A stretch of DNA of 64,000 nt, taken from the NCBI RefSeq assembly GCF_000956525.1, contig NZ_JYIW01000019.1, forward strand, positions 62,001 through 126,000, given 5' to 3'. Both the position numbers and the translations under genes were made by a program. Below, one piece after another: positions 32,111 through 53,222 of the stretch. The stretch's first letter is position 1. Each line of letters opens with the position of its first letter. The DNA comes from Microbacterium oxydans. Lineage in GTDB: Bacteria; Actinomycetota; Actinomycetes; Actinomycetales; Microbacteriaceae. Below the pieces are notes generated by a model. It was not told where the DNA came from. It did not search any database and saw only the letters and a list, made by a program, of their open reading frames with translations.

Positions 32111-32250
32111 CCCCTCACTGTAGCGATCCATTCGAACGACTCCTGCTGCACCGGCAGCGCACTGAGCGAGTTGTCCACCGCTCCTGCGCCAGCGGCCCAG
32201 GAGCACCGGAATACCGTGACAGCCTGGCCGTCCGGACGCACACTGGAGGC

Positions 32251-32562: not shown

Positions 32563-34197
32563 TCAGATCGCGACGTCTCCGACCAGGTTGACCTTGATGC
32601 CCATGCCTGCGAACATCGCCGCCTTGGCGATCAGCGCCTTGTCGGCCGTCTCGGCGTCCGGCGCGTAGACGGTCTGGGCGTGGTTGGCCTTGTGCCGGGC
32701 CATGAACTGGTCGCGCGAGATGCCGTGCAGCACGACATGCGCGATCGGCCACTCGGGATTCGTGGCGTCCTTGCGGCGCGTGGTCTCCTCGGCCGGCAGC
32801 TCGACGACGGATGCGCGGAAGATGTCGGCCTGCAGGATGCCGTCGGCGATGAACACCCGCGACAGCACGAGCTCGCCCGGCTTCGATACGCCGTTGATCG
32901 TCGCGCCGCCCGCCGGGAAGAACACGTGACCCTGACGCCAGCCCTCGGCGTTCTGCCATCCGCCGAGGTGCGAGGCCGGCACCGACCCCGAGATCTCGTA
33001 GACCCACACGAACTGGCCGTCGTAGTCCTCGCCCCAGCGCACATCGTGCAGCGTGTTGTCGGGCACCAGGCCCATCGCGCGCCACACACGATCGGTCACG
33101 AGCGCGTCGACCGCGACGCCCTCGTCGGCCTCGTTGAAGTGCGGGAACGCGCGTCCTTCATGCAGCACGCGCGAGCCGTCGCGCGAGGTCACCGGCGGGC
33201 GCTCGGTGGAGTTCAGGATGCCCTCGGCGAGGTCGGACGCCGGCACGAGGTCCTTCAGGCCCTGCTGGTACTGGATGCCCACCGCGTCGAGCCCGAAATC
33301 GTCGGCGATGCGGAGCGCAGCGATGTACATCTTCAGCTGCCACTGCACCTGCTCGCGGGTGAGTTCGGTCGCTGCGTCCTCGCCGTAGATGAAGGTCATC
33401 CCCGCCTCGATCAGCCAGTCGTAGGCGGCATCCGCCTCGCCTTCGGTGACGTTCAGCATCTCGGCGTACAGGGCCGACTGCGACAGGCGCTCCTTGTAGA
33501 TGCCGGTCCTGTTGAGCAGCTCGTCGTCGAAGATCGCGTTGTACATGCCCATGCAGCCCTCGTCGAAGACGCCGATGATGGCCTTCTCGGCGAGCAGTTC
33601 GGCGGCGAGCGCCTCGCCGAGCGCCTTCTCCGGGCTGTCCGGCAGCTCGGGCAGCGCGCGCACGTGCGAGGCATCGTGCGTGATCGACCCGGTCTCGGTC
33701 CACTCCTTGATGCCGTTCTTGAACCAGTCGTCGCTGAAGTCGACCGACCAGATCGAGGCGTACGGCTTGTCCATCTTGGTGAGGCCGGCGTTCAGGCCGA
33801 GGAGTCCGACGAGTCCCGGCCAGTCACCCGCGAAGTTCGCGACCGTCAGGATCGGGCCCTCGTGCGTGCGGAGCCCTGCGAGCACGTGGTGCGAGTACTG
33901 CCAGACGGCCTCGGCGACGATGAGCGGAGCATCCGTTGGGATGTTCTTGAAGACCTCGAGTCCCATGCGCTGGCTCGAGATGAAGCCGTGGCCCGTCGCC
34001 GGGTCGACCTCGTTGGCGCGGATGACGGTCCAGCCGAGATCCTTGAACACGCCGGTGACGCCCGCTTCGAGTTCGACCTGGACCGGCCAGCCGCCGGTGT
34101 TGGCGGCTTCGCGCAGGTCGCCGGAGGCGATCAGGTACGCGGTCTTGGGCGCGGATGCCGGACGGGATGCCGGGGTCGGCAGGGTGTAGGTGGTCAT
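32563..34197 (-). CDS. L-fucose/D-arabinose isomerase-family protein
   Basis: 544 residues, cytoplasmic. FucI-like segments: VFDEGCMGMYNAIFD (about 211), the active-site stretch AVGIQYQQGLKDLVPASDLAEGILN (about 305-330, read in parts), and the C-terminal His-bearing ARHKANHAQTVYA (about 499). L-fucose isomerases also convert D-arabinose to D-ribulose, because the sugars share configuration at the reacting carbons. Last gene of a tightly overlapped operon kinase-GH116-isomerase, start overlapping the GH116 stop by ATGA, with GGAGG upstream. In this context D-arabinose is the best substrate guess. Divergent enough from classical FucI that the assay is needed. Confidence 0.75.
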   Translation of the reverse strand: MTTYTLPTPASRPASAPKTAYLIASGDLREAANTGGWPVQVELEAGVTGVFKDLGWTVIRANEVDPATGHGFISSQRMGLEVFKNIPTDAPLIVAEAVWQYSHHVLAGLRTHEGPILTVANFAGDWPGLVGLLGLNAGLTKMDKPYASIWSVDFSDDWFKNGIKEWTETGSITHDASHVRALPELPDSPEKALGEALAAELLAEKAIIGVFDEGCMGMYNAIFDDELLNRTGIYKERLSQSALYAEMLNVTEGEADAAYDWLIEAGMTFIYGEDAATELTREQVQWQLKMYIAALRIADDFGLDAVGIQYQQGLKDLVPASDLAEGILNSTERPPVTSRDGSRVLHEGRAFPHFNEADEGVAVDALVTDRVWRAMGLVPDNTLHDVRWGEDYDGQFVWVYEISGSVPASHLGGWQNAEGWRQGHVFFPAGGATINGVSKPGELVLSRVFIADGILQADIFRASVVELPAEETTRRKDATNPEWPIAHVVLHGISRDQFMARHKANHAQTVYAPDAETADKALIAKAAMFAGMGIKVNLVGDVAI

Positions 34198-36875
34198 GAT
34201 GCCTCCGGGGTTGGGGTCTGGGTGAGCGGTGCGCGATGGGCCGCGCCCGCTCGGAGTCGGATGCCGCGGCCGATGGTCCGGTCGCGGAGCTGCAGTTCGG
34301 CGAGGTCGAGCGTGCCACCGTCGAGATGCAGGGTGAGGGACTCGTCGTCGATCTCGACGCGCCCCCAGCCCGTGCCGGTCGTGAACAGGAACTTCTGGGT
34401 CGCTGAGCCCACACCCTGGGTCGCTGAGCCCACACCCTGGGTCGCTGAGCCCACACCCTGGGTCGCTGAGGTTGCCGAAGCGCTCGGCGCGAAGGACAGC
34501 ACCCGGCTCTGCGCGTCCCACTGCGCGCCGCTCGCACCGAGCAGCAGCGCCCAGGATGCGAGCGAGCGGGCGTAGTGGTTGCCGCATTCGATCTCGTTCC
34601 AGGGGCTGCGGTGCGTGCCGTCGTAGCGGGCGCGCAGCGCGGTCTCGACGCGGAGCGCGTCGTCGTGGCGGCCGGCGAACAGCAACGAGGCCGCGACCTG
34701 GTGCTCGATCCCCGTCCACACCTCGTCGGAGTAGACGAAGGGGATCGCCGGACGCCCGCCGCGCGGCCAGGACGCCAGCAGCAGCCCGCCCTCCTCGTTC
34801 AGGGCGTAGACGCGCTGCGTGCTCTCGTGCGCCGAGAGGTCGTCGCGGTGGTTGTGCGCCACGATCGCGGCGAGCGCCGAGTCGACGCGTTCCGCGGGAA
34901 GGATGTGGCCGAGGCCGTTGACGTAGGCGTGGAACTGACCGAGCAGCTGATCCGAGAGCACGCCGTCGCCGTACTGGTAGCGGTACGCATCGGCATCGTC
35001 GATCACCTGGCGGTAGTACTCGCCGTTCCAGAGCGTCTCGTCCATGGCGGCCGCGACGTGGTCGGCTCGAGCGGTCCAGTCCGCTGCGCGGGCGGGCTCG
35101 CCGAGGTGGGCGGCCATCCGAGCACCCGCACGGAGCGCGGCGAGGTACACGCCGTTCGCGAGCGGCTCCGCCCCGTGGAACTCGATGTCGTAGGTGTTGT
35201 GCATCTCGCCGTCGAGCAGGCCGTCGCCGTCGCGGTCCCACTCGCGGATCGCGTAGTCCAGCGTGCGGGATGCCGCGGGCCACAGTTCCCGAAGGAAGTC
35301 GTCGTCGCCGCTGAACCGCCACTCGCGGTGCAGTCGCAGCAGGGTGCCGAGTTGTCCGTCGACGGCGGGGCCCATGAACCAGGAGGGTCCGCCGAAGATG
35401 CGGTTCCCGCGGAACTTCTGGGCGCCGGAGTCGTCGGTCTCGAGCAGGTACTCTGCGCGACGCGCGCTGCGCTCCAGCGAGGGGAACAGCCAGGCGAGGG
35501 TCTGCGCGTAGGACCAGACGTGCGTGCAGGTGCCCTCGCACGAGCCGCCGTGGTCGAACGACCCCTCCCATGCTGCGAACACCGGCCCCTCCCCCAGCTC
35601 GGGGTTCGGCGACGCCAGCACGAAGCCTGTCGTGGAGCGGGCGGCGGCGATGTTGGCGCCGATCGCGTCGATCAGCACCGGGTCGAGGGTGCCGCCGTAG
35701 AGCGCCTCGACGAAGGCATCCGTCGTGGCCTCCAGCTGCGGCAGTCCGGCGTGCAGGTGTCTGGCCGCTGCCCAGGCGTCGGGCCAGAGGGTCGCGTAGT
35801 GGTTCTGCACGACTTCCCCGCCCTTCGACAAGCTCAGGGACCCATCGGGGGAGCCCAGGGACCCGTCCTGGATGATGTGCCCGTGCCAGCCGCGACGGCG
35901 GTTCGGGAAGCTCCACGCCAGCACGAACTCGAAGTCGCGGCTCTCACCGGGAGCGAGCGTGTGCACGATGCCGAGCGAGCCGGTGCGCAGCCGCGGGAGC
36001 TTGGCGAGCATCTCGGCCTCGGTGAGCGGTTCGCCCTTCGACGAGCTCGGCGCCCCGCTCTCGTCGAGCTCGGCGAACAGCCCGCGCGGGCGATCCTCCA
36101 GGGTGAGCCGCGGTTCGGCCGCCAGCAGCCCGTCGTCGGTCAGGTCGTTCCAGAACAGGCGAGCACCGTCGGGCCAGTAGCTCGTGACCCACTGCGGTTT
36201 CGCGGTGGTCGAGGCATCCGTCGTCGTCAGGCTGAGCGTGCCGTGACCGGGGTCGTCCGTCGGCAGATCGATGCCGAAGTCGAGTCCGCGCACATCGCCG
36301 TCGTCGCGCCAGCGAACGGTCTGGGTGGCTCGCATCCCCCACGGCGCATCCGGTCCCGGCGTGCCGCGTCCGGCGGTGTGCGAGACGCTGCCGACGACGG
36401 TCACGGCGACCGGCACGGCGCCTGGGTTCGTCACCCGGTACCTGAGCACGGCTGCCGGGATGCCGGATGCGTCGGCGTCGAGCGGCACGAGCGGCGTGAA
36501 GGCGTGCAGCGACACCTCGACCGGCAGCACCGAGTCGGTGAAGTCGACATCGACGACGGGGTACTCGCCGTGCAGTGTGGCGCCATCGAGTCGAGGGAGC
36601 CCTGCGAGCTGCTCGAAGGGGTAGCCGGCATCCGCATCGTGGCGGCCGGTGAGCCGGGCTTCCAGCACCCGGGTGACTGCGTCGCCGCCCTCTGGCGCTG
36701 CGTGGATCGCGAAGAAGGAGTGCGGGTTGCGTCGCCCCTTGTCCGGGAGGTTCTCGAACTCCCAGTCGCGCAGCTCGCCGCGGGCGCCGATCGATACGTT
36801 GCCCGTGCCGATGCCGCCGAGCGGGAAGGCGGTCACCTGCGAGGTGTGCGGGATGCCCCTGGCACGGCGCGTCAT
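34194..36875 (-). CDS. GH116 glycosidase, candidate exo-beta-D-arabinofuranosidase
   Basis: 893 residues, no signal peptide. N-terminal beta domain starts GIPHTSQVTAFPLGGIGTGN, the signature of GH116 (GBA2-like). The helical barrel carries CEGTCTHVWSYAQ (about 443) and HNTYDIEFHG (about 557), the latter holding the family acid/base Asp. Known GH116 activities are beta-glucosidase, glucosylceramidase and, in Microbacterium arabinogalactanolyticum, exo-beta-D-arabinofuranosidase. Operon with the isomerase and kinase makes the last most likely (inference). It contains two in-frame repeat-derived insertions: DGSLGSPDGSLSLSKGGE near residue 337 and a GSATQGV tandem near 802-827. Confidence 0.87.
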   Translation of the reverse strand: MTRRARGIPHTSQVTAFPLGGIGTGNVSIGARGELRDWEFENLPDKGRRNPHSFFAIHAAPEGGDAVTRVLEARLTGRHDADAGYPFEQLAGLPRLDGATLHGEYPVVDVDFTDSVLPVEVSLHAFTPLVPLDADASGIPAAVLRYRVTNPGAVPVAVTVVGSVSHTAGRGTPGPDAPWGMRATQTVRWRDDGDVRGLDFGIDLPTDDPGHGTLSLTTTDASTTAKPQWVTSYWPDGARLFWNDLTDDGLLAAEPRLTLEDRPRGLFAELDESGAPSSSKGEPLTEAEMLAKLPRLRTGSLGIVHTLAPGESRDFEFVLAWSFPNRRRGWHGHIIQDGSLGSPDGSLSLSKGGEVVQNHYATLWPDAWAAARHLHAGLPQLEATTDAFVEALYGGTLDPVLIDAIGANIAAARSTTGFVLASPNPELGEGPVFAAWEGSFDHGGSCEGTCTHVWSYAQTLAWLFPSLERSARRAEYLLETDDSGAQKFRGNRIFGGPSWFMGPAVDGQLGTLLRLHREWRFSGDDDFLRELWPAASRTLDYAIREWDRDGDGLLDGEMHNTYDIEFHGAEPLANGVYLAALRAGARMAAHLGEPARAADWTARADHVAAAMDETLWNGEYYRQVIDDADAYRYQYGDGVLSDQLLGQFHAYVNGLGHILPAERVDSALAAIVAHNHRDDLSAHESTQRVYALNEEGGLLLASWPRGGRPAIPFVYSDEVWTGIEHQVAASLLFAGRHDDALRVETALRARYDGTHRSPWNEIECGNHYARSLASWALLLGASGAQWDAQSRVLSFAPSASATSATQGVGSATQGVGSATQGVGSATQKFLFTTGTGWGRVEIDDESLTLHLDGGTLDLAELQLRDRTIGRGIRLRAGAAHRAPLTQTPTPEAS
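34395..34482. repeat. 21-bp tandem repeat, 3.6 copies, in the GH116 gene
   Basis: Three exact 21-bp units starting CTGGGTCGCTGAGCCCAC (34395, 34416, 34437) and a fourth partial unit continuing GTTGCCGAAGCG to 34482. Translated they give GSATQGV repeated. The last unit resembles the inverted dispersed repeat at 16774-16793, so the array looks like an expanded copy of that element. Confidence 0.9.
35821..35864. repeat. dispersed repeat inserted in frame in the GH116 gene
   Basis: CCCTTCGACAAGCTCAGGGA plus CCC (35821-35843) then a partial copy GAGCCCAGGGACCC (35851-35864), the same full-plus-partial layout as at 4624-4660. It encodes GSLGSPDGSLSLSKG between HIIQD and the conserved NHYATLWPDAW. 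Confidence 0.85.
36033..36050. repeat. degenerate dispersed repeat in the GH116 gene
   Basis: GCCCTTCGACGAGCTCGG matches the first 15 bases of the element with two changes and gives the low-complexity peptide PSSSKGE. It is probably an old copy; chance similarity cannot be excluded. Confidence 0.45.
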
Positions 36876-38365
36876 GCCGACACCCCGCGCTGCGTCGCCG
36901 CGAGCTCGTGCACGACGTCTTCGGATCGCTCGTACAGGCGCACGTAGCGGTCGAAGAGTGCGTCGTAGCGGGGGCGCAGCGACTCGTCCGGTCGGATGCG
37001 CTGCGCGATCGGGTTCCAGTCGGTGATCGATGGTGCGGCATCCGATGCGGCAGTCGCGGTCGCGGCCAGGAATGCGGCACCGTAGCTCGCGCCGATCGTC
37101 GTCTCCGGCACCTCCTGCACGAGTCCGGTGACGTCGGACACGACCTGCAGCCAGAGCTGCCCCTGGGTGCCGCCGCCCACCGCGACGATGCGACGGATGT
37201 CCGCCCCGGCGGCCCGCATGGTCTCGACGTTGTGCCTGACGCCGAGCGCCGTGGCCTCGAGCGCCGCGCGATACAGGTCGCCTCGCGTGTGCTCGAGGGT
37301 GAGGCCGGCGATCACACCGCGGGCATCGGGATCCTGGATCGGGGTCCGCTCCCCGGCGAAGTACGGGAGCATGAGCAGCCCGTTGGCGCCGGGCCCCGAC
37401 TCTGCGGCTTCGGCGAGCAGCTGCGGGTAGTCCGCGCCGGTCAGCCCCTTCAACCAGGCGGTGAGCGCACCGGAGGTCGAGAGGCCGCCCGCGAGGTTGC
37501 GGGTGCCGGCGAACGCGCCGGCGGTCGTCCACATCGACGGGGTGCGCAGCGTCTCGTCGCCGGTCGTCACCAGGAACATGGTCGTGCCGTACATCAGCAT
37601 CAGGTCGCCGACCTCGTGCGCCCCGACGCTGACGGCCTCGGTCCAGGCGTCGATCGTGCCGGTGATGACAGGGGTCCCGATGGGGATGCCGGTGGCGGAT
37701 GCCGCCTCCGCCGTCACGCGTCCGGCGATGTCGCCGGCCCAGGCGAGCGGCGGTTGCTCGATGCGCTCGGCGTACCGCGTCCACCACGGCTCGTGCCAGC
37801 GCTCCTGCTCGATGTCGTAGAGCGGCGAGACCTGGCTGGCCGACTGGTGGTCGAGCACGTAGGCGCCGGTGAGCTTGCGGGCGAGCCAGGAGGCGGGCAT
37901 GAACAGGCGGCGGGCGCGCGCCCAGGTATCCGGCTCCTCTTCGGCGATCCACGCGATCTTCGGGCCGCCAGCCTGCGAGGTGAGGGTCGAGCCGCCGACG
38001 CGGGTGATCTCGTCGATACCGAGCTCTTCGGTGATGCGCTGGATCTGGGCCGTCGAGCGGGTGTCGACGCCGTAGAGGATGGCCGGCCGCACGGGCTCGT
38101 CGCGCTCGTCCGCGAGCACGACGCACGGGCCCATGCCGCTGACTCCGACGCCGACGACCTCGGCGTCAGGCACTGCCGCGAGAAGCTCTCGTGCGATGTC
38201 GATGAACTCGTCCCACCAGATCCGGGCGTCCATCTCGACCCAGCCGCTGTGCGGACGATCAACGTCGTGCGCCCTGGTCGCGGAGTGCAGGATCGCGCCG
38301 TCGACATCGACCAGCACACCCTTGCTGCTGGATGTGCCGATATCCACCCCGAGGGTGCAGCGCAT
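36872..38365 (-). CDS. FGGY-family sugar kinase, candidate D-ribulokinase
   Basis: 497 residues; AAGGAGG precedes the ATG. Actin-like ATPase motifs of the FGGY family: DIGTSSSKGVLVD (phosphate 1), GTTMFLVTTGD (phosphate 2) and VAVGGGTQGQLWLQVVSD (adenosine). GWVEMDARIWWDE and the DHQSASQVSPLYD loop resemble xylulo/ribulokinases. First gene of the operon with GH116 and the isomerase. If the isomerase makes D-ribulose, this kinase would give D-ribulose 5-phosphate, entering the pentose phosphate pathway. Xylulokinase or fuculokinase activity remains possible from sequence alone. A GAAATCGATTTC operator lies in its promoter. Confidence 0.88.
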   Translation of the reverse strand: MRCTLGVDIGTSSSKGVLVDVDGAILHSATRAHDVDRPHSGWVEMDARIWWDEFIDIARELLAAVPDAEVVGVGVSGMGPCVVLADERDEPVRPAILYGVDTRSTAQIQRITEELGIDEITRVGGSTLTSQAGGPKIAWIAEEEPDTWARARRLFMPASWLARKLTGAYVLDHQSASQVSPLYDIEQERWHEPWWTRYAERIEQPPLAWAGDIAGRVTAEAASATGIPIGTPVITGTIDAWTEAVSVGAHEVGDLMLMYGTTMFLVTTGDETLRTPSMWTTAGAFAGTRNLAGGLSTSGALTAWLKGLTGADYPQLLAEAAESGPGANGLLMLPYFAGERTPIQDPDARGVIAGLTLEHTRGDLYRAALEATALGVRHNVETMRAAGADIRRIVAVGGGTQGQLWLQVVSDVTGLVQEVPETTIGASYGAAFLAATATAASDAAPSITDWNPIAQRIRPDESLRPRYDALFDRYVRLYERSEDVVHELAATQRGVSA

Positions 38366-38411: not shown

Positions 38412-38441
38412 ACTGTACGCGAAATCGATTTCATGACGCAA
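38412..38441 (-). promoter_or_regulatory. Promoter with operator 1 of the GAAATCGATTTC regulon
   Basis: On the minus strand: -35 TTGCGT, an 18-bp spacer containing GAAATCGATTTC (38421-38432), and -10 TACAGT (complement of 38412-38417). The operator fills the spacer, so a bound LacI protein would exclude RNA polymerase. Drives the kinase-GH116-isomerase operon. Confidence 0.88.
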
Positions 38442-38517: not shown

Positions 38518-39501
38518 TCAGGCCCGCGGGCTCGCCGGCTGCACCTCGTTGCGCAGCACGACGGTGCGAGCCGGCTGATCGTCTCCGGCGATGCGCTCCA
38601 GCAGCATCCGAGCCGCGGTAACTCCCATGTGCCGAGCCGGCAGCCGCACGACGGTGACCGCGGTGGGCGACAGCGTCGTGAAGGGCAGCGAGCCGATCAC
38701 GGCGACGCCGACCTCGGGAGGCGTGAGCCCGTGCTCGGTCAGCACCTGGATCGCGCCGACGCCGATGAGGTTGTTTCCGGCGACCACCGCATCCGGGGGT
38801 TCCGGCAGCGCCAGCAGCTCCTCCATCGCGGCGCGGCCGCCGTCGACGCGGAAGGTCGCGAAGCGCGCCAGCTCGACGAGGTCGAGGTCGGGGTGCGCCG
38901 CGGAGAGCGCAGCCCGCCACCCGGCCGCACGCTCTGCCGCGGTATCGATGTGCTCCGGCCCACCGATGTAGGCGATACGGCGGTATCCCGCGTTGATCAG
39001 GTCGTTCGTCGCCGAGGTGCCGGCAGCGCGGTTGGCCATGACGACGCCGTCGATGTCGTAGGTCGTGCCGCGGTCGACTGCGACGACCGGTCGACCGGTC
39101 GCGAGGATGCTGCCGAGATCCGACTGCTCATCGGCCGTCGCGATGATGATGCCTGACATGTGCTCGGCGATCGCGATCCGCAGATACGTCGCCTCCTTCT
39201 CGAGCTGCGCATCCGTGTTGCACAGCACGACCGAGTACCCGGCCTCCGATGCGACATCCTCGACGCCGCGGGCCATCTCGGTGAAGTACGGATTCTCGAT
39301 GTCGGGGATGACGAGCGCGATGACCTCAGAGCTCTGACGGCGCAGGGTGCGGGCGGTGCGGTTCGGCGTGAAACTGAGCTTCTCCGCCGCGAGCCGCACG
39401 GCTGCGACCTTCTCCTCCGACACGCTCGTGCCGTTGAAGACGCGGGAGACCGTCGCCGGAGACACGCCGGCGAGCTCCGCGACGTCGTAGATCGTAGCCA
39501 T
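38518..39501 (-). CDS. LacI-family regulator of the D-arabinan island
   Basis: 327 residues. Head ATIYDVAELAGVSPATVSRVFNG; hinge NRTARTLRRQSSEVIALVIPDIENPY; effector core with VAGNNLIGVGAIQVLTEHG and late QPA(R)TVVLRNEVQ. The Ser-Arg-Val recognition helix is the type that binds AT-rich palindromes with central CG such as GAAATCGATTTC. Five such sites lie within 15 kb, one in its own divergent gap with the GH172 gene and one upstream of the adjacent kinase operon, so it is the natural regulator. The inducer is probably D-arabinose, D-ribulose or a D-arabino-oligosaccharide (inference). Confidence 0.9.
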   Translation of the reverse strand: MATIYDVAELAGVSPATVSRVFNGTSVSEEKVAAVRLAAEKLSFTPNRTARTLRRQSSEVIALVIPDIENPYFTEMARGVEDVASEAGYSVVLCNTDAQLEKEATYLRIAIAEHMSGIIIATADEQSDLGSILATGRPVVAVDRGTTYDIDGVVMANRAAGTSATNDLINAGYRRIAYIGGPEHIDTAAERAAGWRAALSAAHPDLDLVELARFATFRVDGGRAAMEELLALPEPPDAVVAGNNLIGVGAIQVLTEHGLTPPEVGVAVIGSLPFTTLSPTAVTVVRLPARHMGVTAARMLLERIAGDDQPARTVVLRNEVQPASPRA

Positions 39502-39581
39502 ACACCCTCACTGCCTCTCCGGCCTGACCGGAGGTGAAGCAACAGTATCGCGCACGCATCCGATGTCTAGAGATCTGATGT

Positions 39582-39596
39582 GAAATCGATTACATT
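39582..39596 (+). promoter_or_regulatory. Operator 2 overlapping the GH172 gene -10
   Basis: GAAATCGATTAC (39582-39593) differs from the other four sites only in its penultimate base, and that change creates -10 TACATT (39591-39596), which ends seven bases before the GH172 ATG. The mismatch is therefore explained by the overlap. Also lies 80 bases from the divergent LacI start, so may give autoregulation. Confidence 0.85.
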
Positions 39597-39603
39597 GGCG
39601 CCC

Positions 39604-40737
<1,134 letters not shown>

Positions 40738-41667: not shown

Positions 41668-42768
41668 TCAGACCAATCCCTGCACCCGGAACTGCTCGGA
41701 GTGGTAGACGCTGTTGTCGCTCGTCTTCCATTGGCTGACGCTGAGGTGCAGATCAGACAGCGTCGATCCGGGGATGATGTAGCCGCCGTACAGCTGTGCG
41801 ACGTGCGAGGCATCCTCCGTGTTCCACTCCGTGCCGGTGAGCAGCGTGGTCTTGGTCGCGGTGTAGAGGTTGTCGGTCGGCGTATTCAGCACCATCGCGT
41901 CGATCCGGTACCCCGGGCCGTTGAACCACGTGAGGATCCACTTGCCGCCGAGCGGCCGCAGGCACATCTCGCCGAAGCCGCCTGACAGCACCTCCGTGAC
42001 CGGTTTGCCCCAGCCCCATGAGCCGTTCGCGAAGCCCCACGGCTGATACGCCGAGAGCGTGGTCATGCTGTTCGACGGCACGCGGTAGAGCACGATGCCC
42101 TTGTCGCGCTGGAAGCCGGTGCCGTAGATGTACACGTAGCCGTCGTTGCCGAGCCCCCACGTGATGCACTGGAACTTCCCCCCTGCCATGTCGGCCGGGA
42201 ACTGCAGTCCGGTGTGCTGCCAGGTGGCGCCGTTGTCGTCGGACTTCCACAGCTCCGTCCAGCGGACGACCCCGAACTGCGGTCCGTTCACGATCGCATG
42301 CAGGTACATGCGCGATCCGATCGTGATCACGTCGGACGGGATCACGGTGGTGAAGTACGCGTCGTGCGGGTAGTACCAGAGCTGCGGCGCCGTGCCCTGC
42401 GTGTTCGCGCCCGCCCCGGCGCATCCGTTGAACGTGACGCCGGCATTGAGGTTCGTGGTCGACGAGTACAGTGCGACCGGCGAGCGCCAGTTCGTGCCGC
42501 CCACCCCGTCGGCCCAGGTGTCGCCGAACATGAACAGCATCCGCCCATCCGGGGTGCGCACCGGGATGCCGAGGTCGGTCGCACCGACCCCGTACTGCAC
42601 CGGACTCTGCGTGCCGGCGAGCACCTTGATGCGCGACACCGTGAGTCCTGCCGCGCTGGCGGGTGCCGGGACCGCGGTCGAGGCGAGGAACGCCGCTCCC
42701 ACCGCCACTGCTCCCTGCAGCACTCCCCTGCGACTGATCCGTGGTCCGTGCGTGTTGTCGGTCTCCAT
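41668..42768 (-). CDS. DUF4185/GH183 protein, candidate endo-D-arabinanase, Tat-secreted
   Basis: 366 residues from ATG 42768 (GGAGAGG upstream). The N-terminus ISRRGVLQGAVAVGAAFLA is a twin-arginine signal ending near PAPASA-A (about residue 39). The catalytic domain is a five-bladed-propeller-like DUF4185 with GATDLGIPV (Asp65) and FMFGDTW (Asp83), the conserved Asp pair expected to be catalytic, then LYSSTTNLNAGVTF, KSDDNGATWQHTG and WNTEDASHVAQLYGGYI. GH183 enzymes cut inside D-arabinan of mycobacterial cell walls. Last gene of the leftward operon with an importer (SBP, two permeases). Confidence 0.85.
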   Translation of the reverse strand: METDNTHGPRISRRGVLQGAVAVGAAFLASTAVPAPASAAGLTVSRIKVLAGTQSPVQYGVGATDLGIPVRTPDGRMLFMFGDTWADGVGGTNWRSPVALYSSTTNLNAGVTFNGCAGAGANTQGTAPQLWYYPHDAYFTTVIPSDVITIGSRMYLHAIVNGPQFGVVRWTELWKSDDNGATWQHTGLQFPADMAGGKFQCITWGLGNDGYVYIYGTGFQRDKGIVLYRVPSNSMTTLSAYQPWGFANGSWGWGKPVTEVLSGGFGEMCLRPLGGKWILTWFNGPGYRIDAMVLNTPTDNLYTATKTTLLTGTEWNTEDASHVAQLYGGYIIPGSTLSDLHLSVSQWKTSDNSVYHSEQFRVQGLV

Positions 42769-42798
42769 CGACCTCTCCTCTCGGTCCTGCAACTGGTG

Positions 42799-43692
42799 TT
42801 ACTTCAGACCCGCCATCTTGATGTTGCCGATGATCTGCCGCTGGAAGATCAGGAACAGGATGATCACGGGCGCCGCCGCGAGCACGGATCCCGCCATCAG
42901 CAGCCCGAGCTCGGTGCTGCGCTCGGAGCGGAACGTGGCCAGATACTGCTGGAGCACGAACTTGTCCGGCGAGGTGATCGTGAGGATCGGCCAGACGTAC
43001 GAGTTCCAGTAGGCGAGGAACGCCGTGATCCCCATGACGACGAACGGCGGCTTCGACAGCGGCAGGAAGATGCGCACGAAGATGCCGAATCTGCCGCATC
43101 CGTCGAGCATCGCCGCCTCCTCGAGGCTCTTCGGGATGTTCAGGTAGAACTGGCGGATGAAGAACACCATGCCGGCGCTCGCGAGCCCCGGGATCACGAG
43201 CACGCTCAGGGTGTCGAGCATCGAGAGTCGCGTGACGACGATGAAGCTGGTGAGCAGGATCGTCATCCCCGGGATGAACATCGTGGTGATCACGATCCCC
43301 CAGATCAGCCCTTTGAAGCGGAAGTCGAGGCGAGCGAATGCGTATGCGGCGAGCGAGTTGACCGCGAGACTTCCCACGGTGAACAGCACGGCACCGAAGA
43401 ACGTCCACAGCAGCGTCCGCAGGAAGGTGGGGTCGGCCAGGATCTGGGTATAGTTCTGCCAGAGCCAGACCTCGGGGAAGAACTGGAACGGCGTCTCGAC
43501 GACTTCCGTCTTCGACTTGAACCCGGCGATGATCATCCAGGCGAGCGGGAACAGCGATGCGATGACGAACATCGCCCCGACGATCACCTTGCCGAGGACG
43601 ATCAGCCAGCCTCCCGCGCTGCGAGGCGTGCGGGTCGAGCGCGGCTCCTTGCCGGCGAGCACGATACGGGTGGTCTCCTGCATGACGGCCAT
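42799..43692 (-). CDS. Sugar ABC importer permease, MalG-like (island importer 1)
   Basis: 297 residues, six membrane segments after a basic N-terminal tail. The EAA loop that docks the ATPase is EEAAMLDGCGRFGIFVRIFLP (read in parts, about residue 195). One base separates it from the preceding MalF-like gene. No ATPase gene is present in the operon, so a shared MsiK-type ATPase encoded elsewhere must energise it. Likely imports D-arabino-oligosaccharides. Confidence 0.92.
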   Translation of the reverse strand: MAVMQETTRIVLAGKEPRSTRTPRSAGGWLIVLGKVIVGAMFVIASLFPLAWMIIAGFKSKTEVVETPFQFFPEVWLWQNYTQILADPTFLRTLLWTFFGAVLFTVGSLAVNSLAAYAFARLDFRFKGLIWGIVITTMFIPGMTILLTSFIVVTRLSMLDTLSVLVIPGLASAGMVFFIRQFYLNIPKSLEEAAMLDGCGRFGIFVRIFLPLSKPPFVVMGITAFLAYWNSYVWPILTITSPDKFVLQQYLATFRSERSTELGLLMAGSVLAAAPVIILFLIFQRQIIGNIKMAGLK

Positions 43693-43693
43693 C

Positions 43694-44620
43694 TCAGTCG
43701 ACCAGCCTCTCGGAATTGACGAACTTGAACACCAGCGCCGAGATGGATCCCAGCACGACGAACAGCAGCAGTGCCGCCGCGATCGAGTAGCCGACGTTCA
43801 CGTCGTTGCGGAAGTGATTGAAGATGAACAGGTTCGGCAGCGTGGTGGAGTCCAGTGGCCCGCCCTGCGTCATCACGAGGGGCAGCTCGAACTGCTGGAT
43901 CGCCGCGACGAACCCGGTGATGAGCAGATAGAGCACGACGTTCTTCATCTGCGGGATCGTGATGTACGCCGTCTTCTGCCACCAGTTGGCGCCTTCCATC
44001 GCGGCCGCCTCGTAGTACTCGGCCGGGATGTCGACCATCGCGGCCACCATGATCAGCGAGGTCAGGCCCATGCCCAGCCAGATGGCAGGGACCGCGATGG
44101 CGATCAGCGCCCATTTCGGGTCACCGATCCATGCGATCGGCTCGATCCCGAACGTGCCGAGGAACGCGTTGAGCAGACCGCCGGAGTAGTTGTAGATCAG
44201 CACGAAGATGATCGATGCGATCACAGCCGAGATGATCGTCGGGATGTAGATGCTGACCTTCAGCACGCTGGCCGCTCTGCGCGAGACCGCCACGACGAGG
44301 CTGGCGAAGAGGAAGGCCAGCACCAGCATCACCGGAACCGTGAGGAGCACGAAGGCGAACCCTCGGCCGATCGTCGCCAGGAACAGCGGGTCCTTCAGCA
44401 CGTTCGCGTAGTTGCGGATGCCGACGAATTCCGGATCCTTGTAGAAGCTCCAGTCCTGGAAGGACAGGTAGCCGGCGTAGATCGCCGGCCAGAGCACGAA
44501 GATGCCCAGCAGCACCAGCACCGGCAGCAGGAACCAGTACGCGGTCTTGTTGTCCCGATATCGATAGCGATCCTGTCGCTGCCGGATCTCCCGGCGTTCC
44601 TGTACAGCCTGACTGGCCAT
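43694..44620 (-). CDS. Sugar ABC importer permease, MalF-like (island importer 1)
   Basis: 308 residues from ATG 44620; a GTG two codons upstream is also possible. Six membrane segments; WPAIYAGYLSFQDWSFYKDPEFVG is the usual MalF-type first loop, and EAAAMEGANWWQKTAYITIP is the EAA loop. Forms a heterodimer with the product of the next gene and receives sugar from the lipoprotein encoded just upstream. Confidence 0.92.
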   Translation of the reverse strand: MASQAVQERREIRQRQDRYRYRDNKTAYWFLLPVLVLLGIFVLWPAIYAGYLSFQDWSFYKDPEFVGIRNYANVLKDPLFLATIGRGFAFVLLTVPVMLVLAFLFASLVVAVSRRAASVLKVSIYIPTIISAVIASIIFVLIYNYSGGLLNAFLGTFGIEPIAWIGDPKWALIAIAVPAIWLGMGLTSLIMVAAMVDIPAEYYEAAAMEGANWWQKTAYITIPQMKNVVLYLLITGFVAAIQQFELPLVMTQGGPLDSTTLPNLFIFNHFRNDVNVGYSIAAALLLFVVLGSISALVFKFVNSERLVD

Positions 44621-44689
44621 TTCCACCTCGTCGTGATGTCGGATGCGGGCCGCGCGGGGCCGGCGGTGAGCCGACCCCGCACGAGCAGG

Positions 44690-46057
44690 TCAGTTCTTCG
44701 GCGCCTTGTCGGCCAGGCCGTCACGATCGATGACGGTCTGGATCGCGGCGTCGGCGGTCTTGATCGCGTCGTCCACGGATGCCGAGCCCTTCATGACCGA
44801 TTCCATCGCGGTGCCGACTGCGAGGTTCACGTCCCACGGGTAGGTGGGTCCGGCGATGGCGTCGGGCGCGATGTCGTCGACGATGATGCTCGACCACGGG
44901 GCGTCTGCTGCTTCCTCGCTCGCCGCGACGGCATCCTGCACCGACTGGCGAACCGGCACCTTCGTGAACTGCGTGTTCACGAAGAACGGCACGAGGTTCT
45001 CCGGGTCGCCCGCGATCGCCCAGGAGAGGAACTCGCCTGCGGCCTCGGGGCTCTTGCTCTTCGCGTCGACGACCCACGTGAAGTTGCCCATGGTGGTCGA
45101 GGTGCGTCCGTCGGCGTCGGAGGAACTCGGGAACTTGCCGACGCCGGTCTTCGCCAGCAGGTCGGCGTAGTCCGAGCCGATCTCCGACATCATCCACGAG
45201 CCGGAGACCTTGAAGGCGACCTTCTGCTGTCCGAAGTCCTCGCCGGCGACGTAGGCCGCGAGCGGCTGCTTGGGCATGTACCCCTTGTCCCACAGCACCT
45301 TGTACTGCTCCATCAACGCGCGGTAGCCGTCGTCATCGATGGAGGGAGCGGTCCAGTCATCCGTGAGTGCGAGGTGATCGGCGAAGTTGTACTGCTGGCC
45401 GACGGTCGACCAGGCCATGGTCACGGCATCCTGCGCCGGCGAGATGCAGTACTGGCCGTCCGACAGGGTCGGCTGGATCTTCGCGCACGCCGCGAGCAGA
45501 TCGTCCCAGGTCTCGGGAGCAGCCGAGGAGTCGACCCCGGCGGCGTCGAGCATGTCGGTGTTCCAGAACAGCACGGTCTGCGGCTCGAGCAGCAGCGGGT
45601 ACGCGTAGTGCTTGCCGTCGATCTCGGAGATCGAGGTCGCGTTGTCGAGGATCTCCCCGATCGCCTCCTTCGGGACGATCGAGTCGAGTTCGTGCACCGA
45701 CCCGGCATTCACGAGGTCCTGCAGGTTGGCGGAGCTCGTGTAGACGTCCGGCGCCTTGCCTGCCGCCTGGGCCGCCTTCATCTTCTGATCCCAGGCATCG
45801 GCCGGCACCTCGGTGTCGACGACCTTGATCTTGTCCTGCGATGCGTTGAACTTCTTCACGATGTCGGCGTACCACTCGTTCTCCACCGGCGTGAAGTTGC
45901 GGTGCCAGAACTGGATCGTGGTGACGCCGTCCGCCCCGGCGTCGCCGCCGGCGGATTCTCCCGGCGTGCCGGACCCGCAGGCTGCGAGCATCGTGCCGAC
46001 GGTGATCGCGCCGATGGCTGCGATCGTCGCCCTGCGCGTGCGAGTGGTCATTCTCAT
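44690..46057 (-). CDS. Sugar ABC importer substrate-binding lipoprotein (island importer 1)
   Basis: 455 residues; GAGGAGGAACC precedes the ATG. Lipoprotein signal with lipobox LAAC (Cys near residue 27). Mature part is a family 1 (MalE/UgpB-like) binding protein: TTIQFWHRNFTPVENEWYADIV, LVNAGSVHELDSIVPKEA, PLLLEPQTVLFWNTDML and KVAFKVSGSWMMSEIG. Expected to capture oligosaccharides released outside by the GH183 proteins. First gene of the operon SBP-permease-permease-GH183, with operator 3 in its promoter 115 bases upstream. Confidence 0.93.
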   Translation of the reverse strand: MRMTTRTRRATIAAIGAITVGTMLAACGSGTPGESAGGDAGADGVTTIQFWHRNFTPVENEWYADIVKKFNASQDKIKVVDTEVPADAWDQKMKAAQAAGKAPDVYTSSANLQDLVNAGSVHELDSIVPKEAIGEILDNATSISEIDGKHYAYPLLLEPQTVLFWNTDMLDAAGVDSSAAPETWDDLLAACAKIQPTLSDGQYCISPAQDAVTMAWSTVGQQYNFADHLALTDDWTAPSIDDDGYRALMEQYKVLWDKGYMPKQPLAAYVAGEDFGQQKVAFKVSGSWMMSEIGSDYADLLAKTGVGKFPSSSDADGRTSTTMGNFTWVVDAKSKSPEAAGEFLSWAIAGDPENLVPFFVNTQFTKVPVRQSVQDAVAASEEAADAPWSSIIVDDIAPDAIAGPTYPWDVNLAVGTAMESVMKGSASVDDAIKTADAAIQTVIDRDGLADKAPKN

Positions 46058-46162: not shown

Positions 46163-46191
46163 AGAGTAAGCGAAATCGATTTCATGCGCAA
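46163..46191 (-). promoter_or_regulatory. Promoter with operator 3 of the regulon
   Basis: Minus strand: -35 TTGCGC, 17-bp spacer containing GAAATCGATTTC (46172-46183), -10 TACTCT (complement of 46163-46168). Same layout as operator 1. Drives importer 1 and the Tat-secreted GH183 gene. Confidence 0.88.
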
Positions 46192-46211: not shown

Positions 46212-47366
46212 TCAGTCGGCGCGTTGCAGGTCGGCGGAGAACCAGAACACGTTGTACGGGTTCCACAGCGACAGCGTGAAGTGGATGCGGCGCCCGTCCT
46301 CGGTCACGTAGCGGGGGTTGAGATAGGGCGAGTACAGCGACGGATACTCCGCGCCGGAGACGAGTTCGAGCGGTTCGCCCCACGGGCCCCACGGCGTGAT
46401 CCCCTCTCGGATGTACGCGTTCCCGCCATCCGAATACGTCATGATCCAGCGCTCGAGGTACGTCGACCACATCACCGAGAGCTCGCCGATCGTGCCATCG
46501 ACGATGGTCTCGGCATCCGCCATGTCGTCGCTCCACCGCGGGGTCTCGCCGTCGACCCCCGCGAAGTACGAGTAGGCCGACTGGTCCTCGACCGCGTCCT
46601 CGGTGGCCCGTACCCGCATGAGCTGCACGCCACCGAAACGACCGGACGGGATCGACCAGAAGTAGATCCAGTCCTCCCCGCCGTCCGTGACCTGCGCCGT
46701 CGCGACCTGCACGAAGTTCGAGTCGCCCGGCCACTCGACACCGTCGACCGGAGTCCAGGTCTCGCCGCCGTCGCGCGAGACGATCAGCGCCGCACGATTG
46801 GCATCCCAGGCGCCTGGCTCGCCCCAGAAACGCACCGACATGTACGAGACGTAGATCGTGTCGCCGACCGCGAAGCCGTAGGTCGGGATCTTCGTGACCT
46901 CGCCGCCGGCGCCGTTCGCATCATGATCGCCCTCGATCAGGGCGGCGGCGAGCCCGATGTCATCCTCGACCCAACCCTCGAAGTCGATGCCGTCGGTCGG
47001 ATCGTCGTCGGTCGTCCAGGCGGCGACGTTCGATCTCCAGAACCCGCCCTGCCCACCGATCGACTCTGGATCGCGCTCCCCGAAGGTGTCGCCGAACAGG
47101 AAGAACGTCCTGTCGCCGACGTTCACCATCGAGCCGAGGTCGGTACCTGCGACCGAGACGGCGGCCGTGTCGTTCATCGCGTCCGGGCCGGTGAGCTGCG
47201 CGATCTCGGTGAGGTCGGTCACCCCCTCGAGTACGAAGGGCTTGTCCGGATCCGGGTCGACGGTCACCGGGTCACCACCGCCGCATCCGGCGAGCGCGAG
47301 AGCGAGGGCGATGACGGATGCCGAGATGGCGGCGACGCGACGGTGCGCTGGTCTGACATGGTGCAT
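46212..47366 (-). CDS. DUF4185/GH183 protein, candidate endo-D-arabinanase, lipoprotein
   Basis: 384 residues; GAGGAGGATC precedes the ATG. Signal peptide with lipobox LAGC (Cys28), then an acidic Asp/Pro linker (about 32-43). The DUF4185 domain repeats the diagnostic pair: AGTDLGSMV (Asp76) and FFLFGDTF (Asp93), then GGFWRSNVAAWTTDDDPTDG, SRDGGETWTPVDG and YLNPRYVTEDGRRIHFTLS. Distinct in sequence from the Tat-secreted paralogue, so it probably differs in substrate or product size. Membrane anchoring would place it beside the binding lipoprotein. Operator 4 lies 42 bases upstream. Confidence 0.85.
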   Translation of the reverse strand: MHHVRPAHRRVAAISASVIALALALAGCGGGDPVTVDPDPDKPFVLEGVTDLTEIAQLTGPDAMNDTAAVSVAGTDLGSMVNVGDRTFFLFGDTFGERDPESIGGQGGFWRSNVAAWTTDDDPTDGIDFEGWVEDDIGLAAALIEGDHDANGAGGEVTKIPTYGFAVGDTIYVSYMSVRFWGEPGAWDANRAALIVSRDGGETWTPVDGVEWPGDSNFVQVATAQVTDGGEDWIYFWSIPSGRFGGVQLMRVRATEDAVEDQSAYSYFAGVDGETPRWSDDMADAETIVDGTIGELSVMWSTYLERWIMTYSDGGNAYIREGITPWGPWGEPLELVSGAEYPSLYSPYLNPRYVTEDGRRIHFTLSLWNPYNVFWFSADLQRAD

Positions 47367-47399: not shown

Positions 47400-47419
47400 A
47401 ATCTAGCGAAATCGATTTC
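47400..47419 (-). promoter_or_regulatory. Operator 4 with -10 of the GH183 lipoprotein gene
   Basis: GAAATCGATTTC (47408-47419) sits directly upstream of -10 TAGATT (minus strand, complement of 47400-47405). The -35 position is weak (TAGTGC), hinting that this promoter is less active or needs help. Confidence 0.82.
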
Positions 47420-47485
47420 ATAGCACTAGAGTTTCTGCCATGTCCGACTCGGCTGCACAGGCACCGGATCTGCCATGCTGGAGAC

Positions 47486-48112: not shown

Positions 48113-49036
48113 TCAGACCGCGCGCGCGTCTTCCTCAGCGGTGATCGCGATGTGCGCCTGCAGCCGCGCGAACACCGCGTCCAGGCGTGCGCGGCCCGCG
48201 TCGTCGAGCGACGGCAGCGGTGCGCGGCAGTCGCCGAGCGGCACCGAGTTCTTGCCGCCGAGATATTTCGCGGCGCCGAACACACCGACCTCGACCATGC
48301 CCTCGACCGTGTCGTTGATGCGCACCTGCACGGCGCGCGCGCCCGCGAGGTCGCCGGCATCGAAGCGGCGGCGCAGCGACAGGAACAGCTCGATCTGCAG
48401 GCTGACGGTGGTGCCGATCGCGCCGCTCGCGCCGATCGACAGCGCAGGCAGGTAGAACTCGTCGAAGCCGTTCACGAGCGACAGGTGCGGGTAGCGGCTG
48501 AGGATGCGCTCGGCACCGTACAGGTTGCGCGAGGTGTGCTTCACGCCGATCACCTGCGGCAGGGCGAGCAGCTCGTCGAAGCCGCCCTCCGAGATGTCAC
48601 GGCCCGTGAACTGCGGGATGTTGTAGAGCACGAACGGCAGGTCGACCGCGTCGATCACGCTGCGGAAGTGCCGCACCACGTCAGGGGTCGAGTAGCCGTA
48701 GTACAGCGGCGGGATCATCGAGATCGCCGCGACACCGGCATCCTTCGCGGCCCCCGCGATGCGGATCGCCTCGCCGGTCGACATCGCACCGACGTGCGAC
48801 ACGACCGGCACGCGGCCGGCCGCTGCGGTCACCGCGGTCTCGGCGACGGCGATGCGCTCTGCCTCAGAGAGCAGCACGCCCTCGCCAGAGGAGCCGCACA
48901 CGTAGAGCCCTTCGACCCCGCGGCGGATGTCGCTGTCGAGCATCGCGCTGAGAGCCGAGTGGTCGATGCTCTCGTCGGCGTGCATCGGCGTGACGGCCGC
49001 CGTGAACAGTCGGTCGCCCAGCACCGCGTTCACCAT
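48113..49036 (-). CDS. DHDPS/N-acetylneuraminate lyase-family aldolase or dehydratase
   Basis: 307 residues from ATG 49036 (GGAGG nine bases upstream). TIM barrel with GSSGEG (about 48), the Tyr in FVLYNIPQFTGR (about 140) and the Schiff-base Lys in VIGVKHTSRN (about 165). Family members split 2-keto-3-deoxy sugar acids, sialic acid or make dihydrodipicolinate. Last gene of the leftward operon SBP-permease-permease-SDR-aldolase; overlaps the SDR stop. With a sugar importer and a dehydrogenase, a 2-keto-3-deoxy-sugar-acid aldolase is the likely role, but no sugar-acid dehydratase is encoded here. Confidence 0.85.
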   Translation of the reverse strand: MVNAVLGDRLFTAAVTPMHADESIDHSALSAMLDSDIRRGVEGLYVCGSSGEGVLLSEAERIAVAETAVTAAAGRVPVVSHVGAMSTGEAIRIAGAAKDAGVAAISMIPPLYYGYSTPDVVRHFRSVIDAVDLPFVLYNIPQFTGRDISEGGFDELLALPQVIGVKHTSRNLYGAERILSRYPHLSLVNGFDEFYLPALSIGASGAIGTTVSLQIELFLSLRRRFDAGDLAGARAVQVRINDTVEGMVEVGVFGAAKYLGGKNSVPLGDCRAPLPSLDDAGRARLDAVFARLQAHIAITAEEDARAV

Positions 49037-49863
49037 GCGGTCCACCCTCCGTCGACGACCACGTTCGAGCCGGTCATGTACGTCGAGGCGTCGGAGGCGA
49101 GGAACACCAGAGCGCCGTTGTACTCGTCGGCCTCGGCCATGCGGCCGATCGGCATCCGCTCGATGTAGTTCGCCTGGAACTTCGCATCCTGCGTGTCGCG
49201 GCGCACGCCCGACGGGGTGAGCGTGTTGACGCGGATACCGGCGCGACCCCAGTACGTCGCGCAGTAACGGGTGAGGTTGTACAGCCCCGACTTGGCGGCC
49301 GAGTACGCGACCGGCTTGATGAACGGGATGCCGGTGTCCTCGGCCTTGTACGCGTAGATGTCCTGTACCGGCGAGACCATGCCGTAGATCGAACCCACGT
49401 TCACGATCGAGCCGCCGAGTCCGGCATCCCGCATCCGTCGACCCGCCGCCTGGGTGACGAGGAAGGTGCCGACGAGGTTCGTGTCGACGACCTCGCGGAA
49501 CACGTCGACGGGGAACTCCTCGAAGGGGCCGGAGACCTCGGGCGGGGCGCTCGGCTGCGTGTCGATCCCGGCGTTGTTCACGACCACCGTCGGCACGCCC
49601 CAGGTCTCGACGACCCGGTCGAAGCCGGCGTCGACGCTCGCCTGGTCGGTGATGTCCATCTCGATCGCGAGCAGTCGTCCCTCCGGGTCATCGAGTCCGA
49701 GCCTCGCGGCCGGGTCGGCCACCTCGCTGCGGGAGGTGACGGCCACGCGGGCGCCCCGCTCGTGCAGCGAGCGGACGAACTCCGCGCCGATCTGGCCGAA
49801 GCCGCCGGTGACGACGACCACCTTGTCCCGCACCGAGAAGAGCGGGTCCTGTCCTTCAGACAT
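49030..49863 (-). CDS. Short-chain dehydrogenase/reductase
   Basis: 277 residues. Rossmann motif VVVVTGGFGQIGAEFV, NNAG (about 93), Ser in VNVGSIYGM and the catalytic YSAAKSG (about 188). Resembles the gluconate 5-dehydrogenase/2-keto-gluconate reductase-like SDRs found with sugar catabolic genes. An unusual insertion around 165-185 (QDIYAYKAEDTGIPFIKPV) lies before the catalytic Tyr. Probably oxidises a sugar or sugar acid imported by the neighbouring ABC system. Start ATG at 49863 follows the permease by 27 bases. Confidence 0.9.
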   Translation of the reverse strand: MSEGQDPLFSVRDKVVVVTGGFGQIGAEFVRSLHERGARVAVTSRSEVADPAARLGLDDPEGRLLAIEMDITDQASVDAGFDRVVETWGVPTVVVNNAGIDTQPSAPPEVSGPFEEFPVDVFREVVDTNLVGTFLVTQAAGRRMRDAGLGGSIVNVGSIYGMVSPVQDIYAYKAEDTGIPFIKPVAYSAAKSGLYNLTRYCATYWGRAGIRVNTLTPSGVRRDTQDAKFQANYIERMPIGRMAEADEYNGALVFLASDASTYMTGSNVVVDGGWTAW

Positions 49864-49890
49864 GTGTGAATACTCCAGATTGCAGGGCGC

Positions 49891-50763
49891 TCAGCCCTTG
49901 ACGGATCCTGCGGTGAGCCCCGAGACGATGCCTCGCTGCGCCCACAGGAAGAAGATGATCGCCGGGAGCGCGAACAGCAGCGCGCAGAACATCACGACGT
50001 TCATGGGGGTGTAGAACTGGCCGAGGAACGACGACAGTCCGACGGATGCCGGCCACAGATCGGACGACGAGATGAACGTGTTCGCGAACATGAACTCGTT
50101 CCAGCCGTCGAAGAACGCGATGACGGAGGCCGCCGCGATGCTCGGCATGATCAGGGGCAGCACGATCGTGGTGAGGATGCGCACCCGGGAGCATCCGTCG
50201 ATCCTGGCTGCCTCCTCGATCTCGTAGGGGATCTTGTCGATGCCGCTCTTGATGATGAACATCGCGACCGGCATCACGAACGCGGTGTCGGCGAGGATGA
50301 GTCCCCAGTGGCTGTTCAGCAGCCCGGCGCCGGCGAAGATCGCGTAGAGCGGCACGATGATGAGGGCCTCGGGCAGCATCTGCGTGCTGAAGAAGATGAA
50401 GCCCGCGACGCCGCGGCCGTGGAAGCGGTAGCGGCTGAGCGCGTAGGCGGCCATCGTCGCCAGCACCAGGCTGAGGACCGTGGTGCCCGCGGCGATCACG
50501 AAGGAGTTGCCGAGCCAGCGGAAGATCGGGATGTCGGAGAGGAATCCGCCCCACTGCCCGATGTTCTGGAACTCGGGGATCAGCGGCTGGCTGCCGCCGT
50601 ACAGCGAGGACTCGGTGCCGAGCGAGGTCGACAGCATCCAGTAGACGGGGAAGCCGGCGAAGACGACGAGCAGCGTGATGAGCACTGCCTTGCCGAGGCT
50701 GCCGACTCTGGCGCCGACGCCGCGACGACGCGGCAGATCGATGGTGATGCGTTCCGTGGTCAT
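49891..50763 (-). CDS. Sugar ABC importer permease, MalG-like (island importer 2)
   Basis: 290 residues, six membrane segments; EAA loop EEAARIDGCSRVRILTTIVLP (in parts, about 190). GSQPLIPEFQNIGQWGGFLS is the MalG-type first loop. Its start codon region lies inside a 56-bp tandem duplication: ATG 50763 overlaps the stop of a chimeric 19-codon frame. Confidence 0.92.
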   Translation of the reverse strand: MTTERITIDLPRRRGVGARVGSLGKAVLITLLVVFAGFPVYWMLSTSLGTESSLYGGSQPLIPEFQNIGQWGGFLSDIPIFRWLGNSFVIAAGTTVLSLVLATMAAYALSRYRFHGRGVAGFIFFSTQMLPEALIIVPLYAIFAGAGLLNSHWGLILADTAFVMPVAMFIIKSGIDKIPYEIEEAARIDGCSRVRILTTIVLPLIMPSIAAASVIAFFDGWNEFMFANTFISSSDLWPASVGLSSFLGQFYTPMNVVMFCALLFALPAIIFFLWAQRGIVSGLTAGSVKG

Positions 50764-50862
50764 CGCTGGCTCTCCTGACGTTCCTGGATCTGCTCGACGA
50801 TGAACTGTTCCGTGGTCATCGCTGGCTCTCCTGACGTTCCTGGATCTGCTCGACGATGAAGT
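50751..50862. repeat. 56-bp tandem duplication at the permease-permease junction
   Basis: Bases 50751-50804 and 50807-50860 are identical (54 of 54) with period 56. Each copy holds the last ~16 codons of the MalF-like gene joined by ATGA to the first codons of the MalG-like gene. Both full genes survive because the duplication spans their junction. Confidence 0.95.
50760..50819 (-). CDS. Chimeric 19-codon frame created by the duplication
   Basis: Reads MTTEQFIVEQIQERQESQR then TGA: the first four residues of the MalG-like permease fused to the last 15 of the MalF-like permease. It overlaps the stop of one gene and the start of the other by ATGA, keeping translational coupling. No function is expected; it may only act as a coupling spacer. 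Confidence 0.5.
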   Translation of the reverse strand: MTTEQFIVEQIQERQESQR

Positions 50863-51781: not shown

Positions 51782-51863
51782 GCTGAGGTCCTTTCGGGTG
51801 TGGGGGTCGAGGGGCGGGATGGGGGTGTCCCGCCCCTCCGGTGCGCAGTCGGGACTGCGCTGC

Positions 51864-53159: not shown

Positions 53160-53222
53160 TGTTCACTCCTTTGGGCAGCAAGTTGATTGCGACGATGCAG
53201 TCGATTTCCGCCCGGGACGCGT

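Follow-up and report, generated by a model that had tools for sequence, protein, structure and literature searches.

Which sugar is handled by the isomerase and kinase genes that lie on either side of a glycoside hydrolase family 116 (GH116) gene in Microbacterium oxydans? The three genes are located in a window of 64,000 nucleotides (NCBI RefSeq assembly GCF_000956525.1, contig NZ_JYIW01000019.1, positions 62,001 to 126,000), i.e. the whole stretch analyzed here, to which all coordinates refer. They are three complete minus-strand open reading frames (ORFs) in the order kinase (KIN), GH116, isomerase (ISO), running from 38365 to 32563, and the G+C content at their third codon positions is 0.90–0.93. 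An earlier, sequence-only reading had described overlaps of 4 bp between these genes, which proved exact, with ATGA at both junctions. It had also called the genes fused; a gene fusion was rejected, since they are separate overlapping ORFs. Before the kinase start stands AAGGAGGACACC, by eye a good ribosome-binding site. Because of the function of the locus, the FucI-type active site of the isomerase, and the DarK-type partner kinases found with its relatives, we predict (probability roughly 80%) that the pair consists of a D-arabinose isomerase and a D-ribulokinase in a D-arabinan utilization regulon.

A D-arabinan utilization locus has been published for Microbacterium arabinogalactanolyticum JCM 9171 (PMC10509167; this paper as well as PMC6894278, PMC3245297, and PMC12307932 are cited for the portions of their text available to us). 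The locus of the strain described there, L011, has the same order KIN-GH116-ISO plus GH172 and a regulator. Identities over the best tblastn segment were 89% for the isomerase, 81% for the kinase, 77% for GH116, and 93% for GH172. Its first junction overlaps as here, whereas the second is a gap of 26 bp. No close GH183 match was present within the flank of L011 examined, whereas four GH183 genes are reported in the paper. The GH116 protein of M. oxydans carries the GH116N and DUF608 domains (Pfam) and matched the exo-beta-D-arabinofuranosidase structures PDB 8ic6/8ic7 with 1512 bits (8ic6). In an alignment to the L011 ortholog, its residues E437, D563, H452, and R489 correspond to the catalytic and recognition residues E431, D557, H446, and R483 of ExoMA2. 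Judged by sequence, it is an ortholog of ExoMA2, the solved exo-beta-D-arabinofuranosidase of GH116 subfamily 4. The operon is surrounded by a GH172 gene, two GH183 genes, two ATP-binding cassette (ABC) importers, and two LacI-type regulators, and the D-arabinan polysaccharide utilization locus (PUL) set of GH183, GH172, GH116, importer, isomerase, and kinase is thus present together (Table 1). A likeness to PUL42 of D. gadei (Bacteroidota; PMC10115798) was drawn by description only.

For the sister strain, hydrolase enzymes were shown and import of oligosaccharides was proposed; the cloned genes named in the available portion of PMC10509167 are GH and GH183 genes only. Its regulon was defined by quantitative PCR: upon induction with D-arabinose, GH116 and GH183 genes responded more than 10-fold and GH172 3.5-fold. 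Isomerase and kinase are called 'putative' there and a route from D-arabinose to D-ribulose-5-phosphate is drawn, i.e. this role has already been proposed in print. New here are the assignment of the isomerase to a divergent family, the swap of its partner kinase, and the operator set. Isomerase and kinase are exact, cheap targets for the two remaining steps of mycobacterial D-arabinan catabolism.

Two repeats were observed in frame within GH116. A 21-bp tandem repeat (34395–34470, 3.6 identical copies) corresponds to a gap in the L011 ortholog. A sequence resembling repetitive extragenic palindromic elements, GGTCCCTGAGCTTGTCGAAGGG (35821–35842), did not appear in the L011 stretch aligned with it; with up to 2 mismatches allowed, its core was matched 17 times in the window versus 1.1 expected.

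The isomerase had been described as far from classical FucI, and this was borne out by the sequence searches. In all of Pfam at E 1e-3, the sole match was Fucose_iso_C (PF02952; 32.9 bits against a cut-off of 29.3), with no match to Fucose_iso_N2; Fucose_iso_N1 (PF07881) matched neither the isomerase nor any other protein of the genome at that threshold. It was also the only Fucose_iso_C match of the genome at E 0.01, the fold relative elsewhere being an ordinary L-arabinose isomerase. A PDB search by phmmer returned no chain at E ≤ 10, and hmmsearch with a profile of 53 rows returned none at E ≤ 1. Despite this, the AlphaFold model (predicted local distance difference test score 90.7) matched FucI-type structures (Z up to 36.5, 334 residues aligned, 17–19% identity). 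The Z scores (VIA) were 36.5 for 1fui and 35.3 for the Bacillus pallidus D-arabinose isomerase, compared with at most 31.7 for AraA and 9.9 for the first unrelated row. This match is carried by residues 186–544, which share with classical FucI (Escherichia coli 1FUI; B. pallidus 3A9R) the fold, the Mn ligands, and the equivalent of Q300; the protein differs in its length of 544 rather than 591 residues. The root-mean-square deviation over the full length was ~22 in Foldseek, which points to a different placement of the N-terminal domain in the monomer model.

The active-site residues were assigned with hhalign, using a profile of 61 isomerase relatives against 17 FucI-type proteins (473 columns, P = 8e-24). 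Three of these 17 are full-length classical FucI (identical with, or 52.7–61.3% identical to, that of K-12), and the remaining 14 are relatives of ~470–507 amino acids (21–25%) with Lys at the Q300 column. In this alignment the Mn ligands E337, D361, and H528 of FucI and its Q300 (roles from PMC6894278) correspond to E356, D385, H506, and Q309, all invariant in 53 of 53 aligned isomerase rows. A simpler MAFFT alignment recovered only the counterparts of His528 and Gln300, the acids being misaligned; hhalign with the profile of 53 rows led nowhere, be it against single sequences of FucI (a weak result) or of AraA. On the basis of model and profile, the isomerase is a member of the FucI/AraA fold superfamily that keeps the predicted Mn ligands. 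FucI-like proteins of ~470 amino acids with an N1 domain, 21–25% identical to E. coli FucI, were also observed in genomes of the class (L114–L127).

In a scan of genome contigs, 80 related loci were kept from at least 594 encoding stretches. The family was present in 45 of 99 Microbacterium genomes and, across the phylum, in four of 396 genomes, the own genome included (E 1e-20). A plasmid collection contained 22 further records (40–59% identity) from Deinococcus, rhizobia, other alphaproteobacteria, Klebsiella, Proteus, and Chloroflexota. No characterized member was found in the searches made.

The kinase has the FGGY_N and FGGY_C domains (Pfam) and stayed below every NCBIfam cut-off listed. 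Its best NCBIfam match was XylB (TIGR01312; 313.4 bits, cut-off 380.25), and it scored 130.5 for the DarK/RbtK type of pentulose kinases (TIGR01315; cut-off 408.7). This best match would fit a D-xylulokinase acting after epimerization of D-ribulose to D-xylulose, and at one related locus, L029, the isomerase gene is preceded at 1.1 kb by a gene for a TIM-barrel protein of the AP_endonuc_2 type, with a LacI-like gene in between. We consider such a route very improbable: the genome has its own XylB (389 bits) adjoining XylA, both over the NCBIfam cut-offs that KIN does not reach, and no epimerase family was found among the 20 window ORFs scanned. Moreover, all 57 rows of the KIN group read Gly-Pro at the columns of Met-His in E. 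coli XylB, by our own column assignment; Met-His starts the XylB-I signature (PMC3245297), which is not strict, as the genome's own XylB reads Gln-His. In a quick kinase tree, in which the reference branches are long, a branch with support 85 (not starred) separated the 57 rows from the rest. The genome's AraA, over its NCBIfam cut-off, lies beside a further FGGY kinase read as AraB. At C16:14000–27000 (L090), the genome encodes yet another FGGY kinase, this one exceeding the XylB cut-off, near a phosphotriesterase-family gene and, by reading of the ORFs, a CUT2-type (carbohydrate uptake transporter 2) importer.

The D-ribulokinase assignment is favored by the partner kinases in other phyla. 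Eight of the 22 plasmid loci were examined gene by gene, and an FGGY kinase lay beside the isomerase in seven, the Chloroflexota locus being the exception. Two of these kinases (both Deinococcus loci) are of the KIN type and 48% identical to KIN, and five (all proteobacterial loci examined) are of the DarK type. A kinase on the XylB side, below the XylB cut-off, adjoined the isomerase in 56 of 80 actinobacterial and two of two Deinococcus loci. The five proteobacterial kinases are 42.9–60.1% identical to the FGGY kinase of E. coli BL21, which we take to be a B strain; this kinase sits in the fuc locus, where a LacI gene and genes for an ABC importer are also present, and like three of the five that were scanned (L104, L106, and L107) it exceeds the TIGR01315 cut-off. 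DarK, a D-ribulokinase required for D-arabinose, has been described as inserted into the fuc locus of E. coli (PMC12307932). Thus two unlike FGGY kinases, one of them of D-ribulokinase type, pair with the same isomerase family, which favors D-ribulose as the intermediate shared by isomerase and kinase; we regard this pairing as the best evidence for what is predicted here.

Several points weigh against a D-arabinose isomerase acting together with a D-ribulokinase: (i) the identification of the BL21 kinase with DarK rests on position and strain; (ii) KIN is only 25–32% identical to DarK-type kinases (29.6% over 530 columns to that of E. coli B); (iii) L-fucose and D-arabinose are both substrates of FucI enzymes (PMC6894278), so that FucI-type residues cannot separate the two substrates; (iv) at L029, where D-arabinan hydrolases are lacking nearby, a GH29 fucosidase gene is found 3.4 kb downstream of the relative; and (v) 44 of the 80 loci had no D-arabinan hydrolase over our thresholds in the flank examined. 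From (iii) and (iv), together with the fold and residues of FucI and the annotation of 14 of the 22 plasmid records as fucose isomerase, one could argue for a family acting mainly on L-fucose, or on both sugars, that was recruited into the locus along with a kinase tolerating L-fuculose. This appears unlikely, as the product of the locus is D-arabinose, KIN scored 110 against an L-fuculokinase cut-off of 470.9 (NCBIfam), and no class II (FucA-type) aldolase is encoded in the window. A 1-phosphate route would therefore lack a local class II aldolase; of the two matches in the genome, one is at C16, next to AraA with its kinase, and the other at C23.

The hydrolase-less loci in (v) suggest that the kinase-isomerase module may serve other sugars too. 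They were counted at identity thresholds of ≥45% for GH116, ≥60% for GH172, and ≥40% for GH183, with weaker matches taken as absent (e.g. GH116 at 31–39% in several loci), and in some of them the absence is due to a contig end; the remaining 36 loci had GH116, GH172, or GH183 over the thresholds. Relatives of two further window genes, a TctA family transporter in nine of 80 loci and a short-chain dehydrogenase/reductase (SDR) in 14 of 80, would also fit a pair that handles another pentose or a carboxylated sugar, its D-arabinan hydrolase neighborhood being secondary. Given the DarK-type partner kinases and the D-arabinose induction of the sister strain's GH116 gene (PMC10509167), we rate such a specificity as quite unlikely and retain the assignment to D-arabinose and D-ribulose.

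The arrangement of the three genes is only partly conserved. KIN directly precedes ISO in 41 of 80 loci and KIN-GH116-ISO occurs in 13; GH116-ISO without KIN directly in front (4), ISO-KIN (2), and other arrangements (20) make up the rest. KIN and GH116 overlap by 4 bp in eight of the 13 KIN-GH116-ISO loci; among the 17 loci in which GH116 precedes ISO, these two genes have such an overlap in 13. The pair of kinase and isomerase is, in our view, probably the older unit. On the isomerase tree, 37 rows carried the PUL label (assigned at the thresholds above; window included) and 36 did not, eight of the 80 loci being omitted for short flanks. The label changed 15 times, whereas 200 shuffles gave 24.5 changes on average and never fewer than 18; it is clustered, but gains or losses were numerous. 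Because of this scatter on the tree, we rejected the idea of an isomerase clade confined to D-arabinan clusters. The suggestion of a new D-arabinose isomerase subgroup is hence right as to the divergence from FucI, but the family spans several phyla, is often annotated as fucose isomerase, and does not follow D-arabinan clusters.

A broader scenario, to which we would give even odds, is that this multi-phylum FucI-fold family is a general D-arabinose isomerase of bacteria, distinct from classical FucI and served by two non-orthologous kinases, the proteobacterial one being of the DarK type, and that GH116 was inserted into an older kinase-isomerase operon. If so, the XylB-side lineage of actinobacteria and Deinococcus would be a second, independently evolved D-ribulokinase, the GH116 insertion would have built the D-arabinan regulon, and the 'fucose isomerase' and generic FGGY kinase annotations in these lineages could be corrected.

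How might these genes be regulated together? Exact copies of the LacI-type palindrome core GAAATCGATT number five in the genome (3.8 Mb), and every one of them lies in the window; the reversed control has none. One of the five precedes GH172 if, as is probable, translation starts at the Met codon at 39604. In at least 42 of the 80 loci, the palindrome (up to two mismatches) was located no more than 250 bp from where the operon begins, a low count, as L002, L003, L005, L017, and L049 were counted without it and yet have a site upstream of the operon; shuffled palindromes (up to 30) gave none. Some site-bearing loci lack D-arabinan hydrolases, so the palindrome belongs with the KIN-ISO module in general. 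The adjacent LacI-family protein presumably binds these sites, and the D-arabinose induction in the sister strain (PMC10509167) fits the operator set. The main text of that paper does not contain the words LacI, regulator, or repressor; regulator and operator are here proposed for its regulon.

Taken together, the operon would form the intracellular end of a D-arabinan utilization regulon. GH183 enzymes would cut mycobacterial arabinan outside the cell, the ABC importers would take up oligosaccharides, and GH172 and GH116 would release D-arabinose. The isomerase, as an Mn-type enzyme, would convert D-arabinose to D-ribulose by an ene-diol mechanism, in which E356 and D385 are predicted from the alignment to act, with H506 as the third metal ligand. 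The FGGY kinase would then phosphorylate D-ribulose at O5, and D-ribulose-5-phosphate would enter the pentose phosphate pathway. The LacI-family regulator encoded just upstream may couple the units through the five palindromes.

Table 1. Features of the predicted D-arabinan utilization regulon in the window (SBP, substrate-binding protein; DHDPS, dihydrodipicolinate synthase)
Feature	Position	Strand	Basis or remark
KIN, FGGY carbohydrate kinase, predicted D-ribulokinase, 497 aa	36872..38365	-	ORF and family profiles
GH116 exo-beta-D-arabinofuranosidase, ExoMA2 ortholog, 893 aa	34194..36875	-	ORF, Pfam, PDB match
ISO, FucI/AraA-fold isomerase, predicted D-arabinose isomerase, 544 aa	32563..34197	-	Pfam, predicted fold, alignment
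LacI-family regulator	38518..39501	-	Family match; palindrome binding predicted
Operator-like palindrome, 55 bp upstream of KIN	38420..38433	.	
Operator-like palindrome, between LacI gene and GH172	39581..39594	.	
Operator-like palindrome, upstream of first SBP gene	46171..46184	.	
Operator-like palindrome, upstream of second GH183 gene	47407..47420	.	
Operator-like palindrome, upstream of second SBP gene	53222..53235	.	
GH172 (DUF2961), exo-alpha-D-arabinofuranosidase family	39580..40737	+	Pfam
GH183 (DUF4185), endo-D-arabinanase family	41668..42792	-	Pfam
ABC importer	42799..46057	-	Permeases 42799-43692 and 43694-44626; SBP 44690-46057
Second GH183 (DUF4185)	46212..47366	-	Pfam
Second unit after fifth palindrome: SBP, two permeases, SDR, DHDPS-family protein	48113..53159	-	

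Some neighboring genes were observed in addition. Downstream of the isomerase, a plus-strand gene (29670–30998) encodes a protein without a Pfam match at 1e-3 and is adjoined by the second LacI-type regulator gene (31097–32281). The TctA family transporter gene lies near the regulon at 54779–56440, and seven of the nine isomerase loci with TctA relatives lack D-arabinan hydrolases. Our gene caller also gave antisense ORFs, and clusters of neighbors are leads only. Possibly, the second unit represents an oxidative pentose route, for D-arabinose. SDR or DHDPS-type genes were present near the isomerase in seven of the eight plasmid loci examined, again with the exception of Chloroflexota. They were confirmed in the Klebsiella locus, which also contains an enolase-superfamily gene and a sugar transporter.

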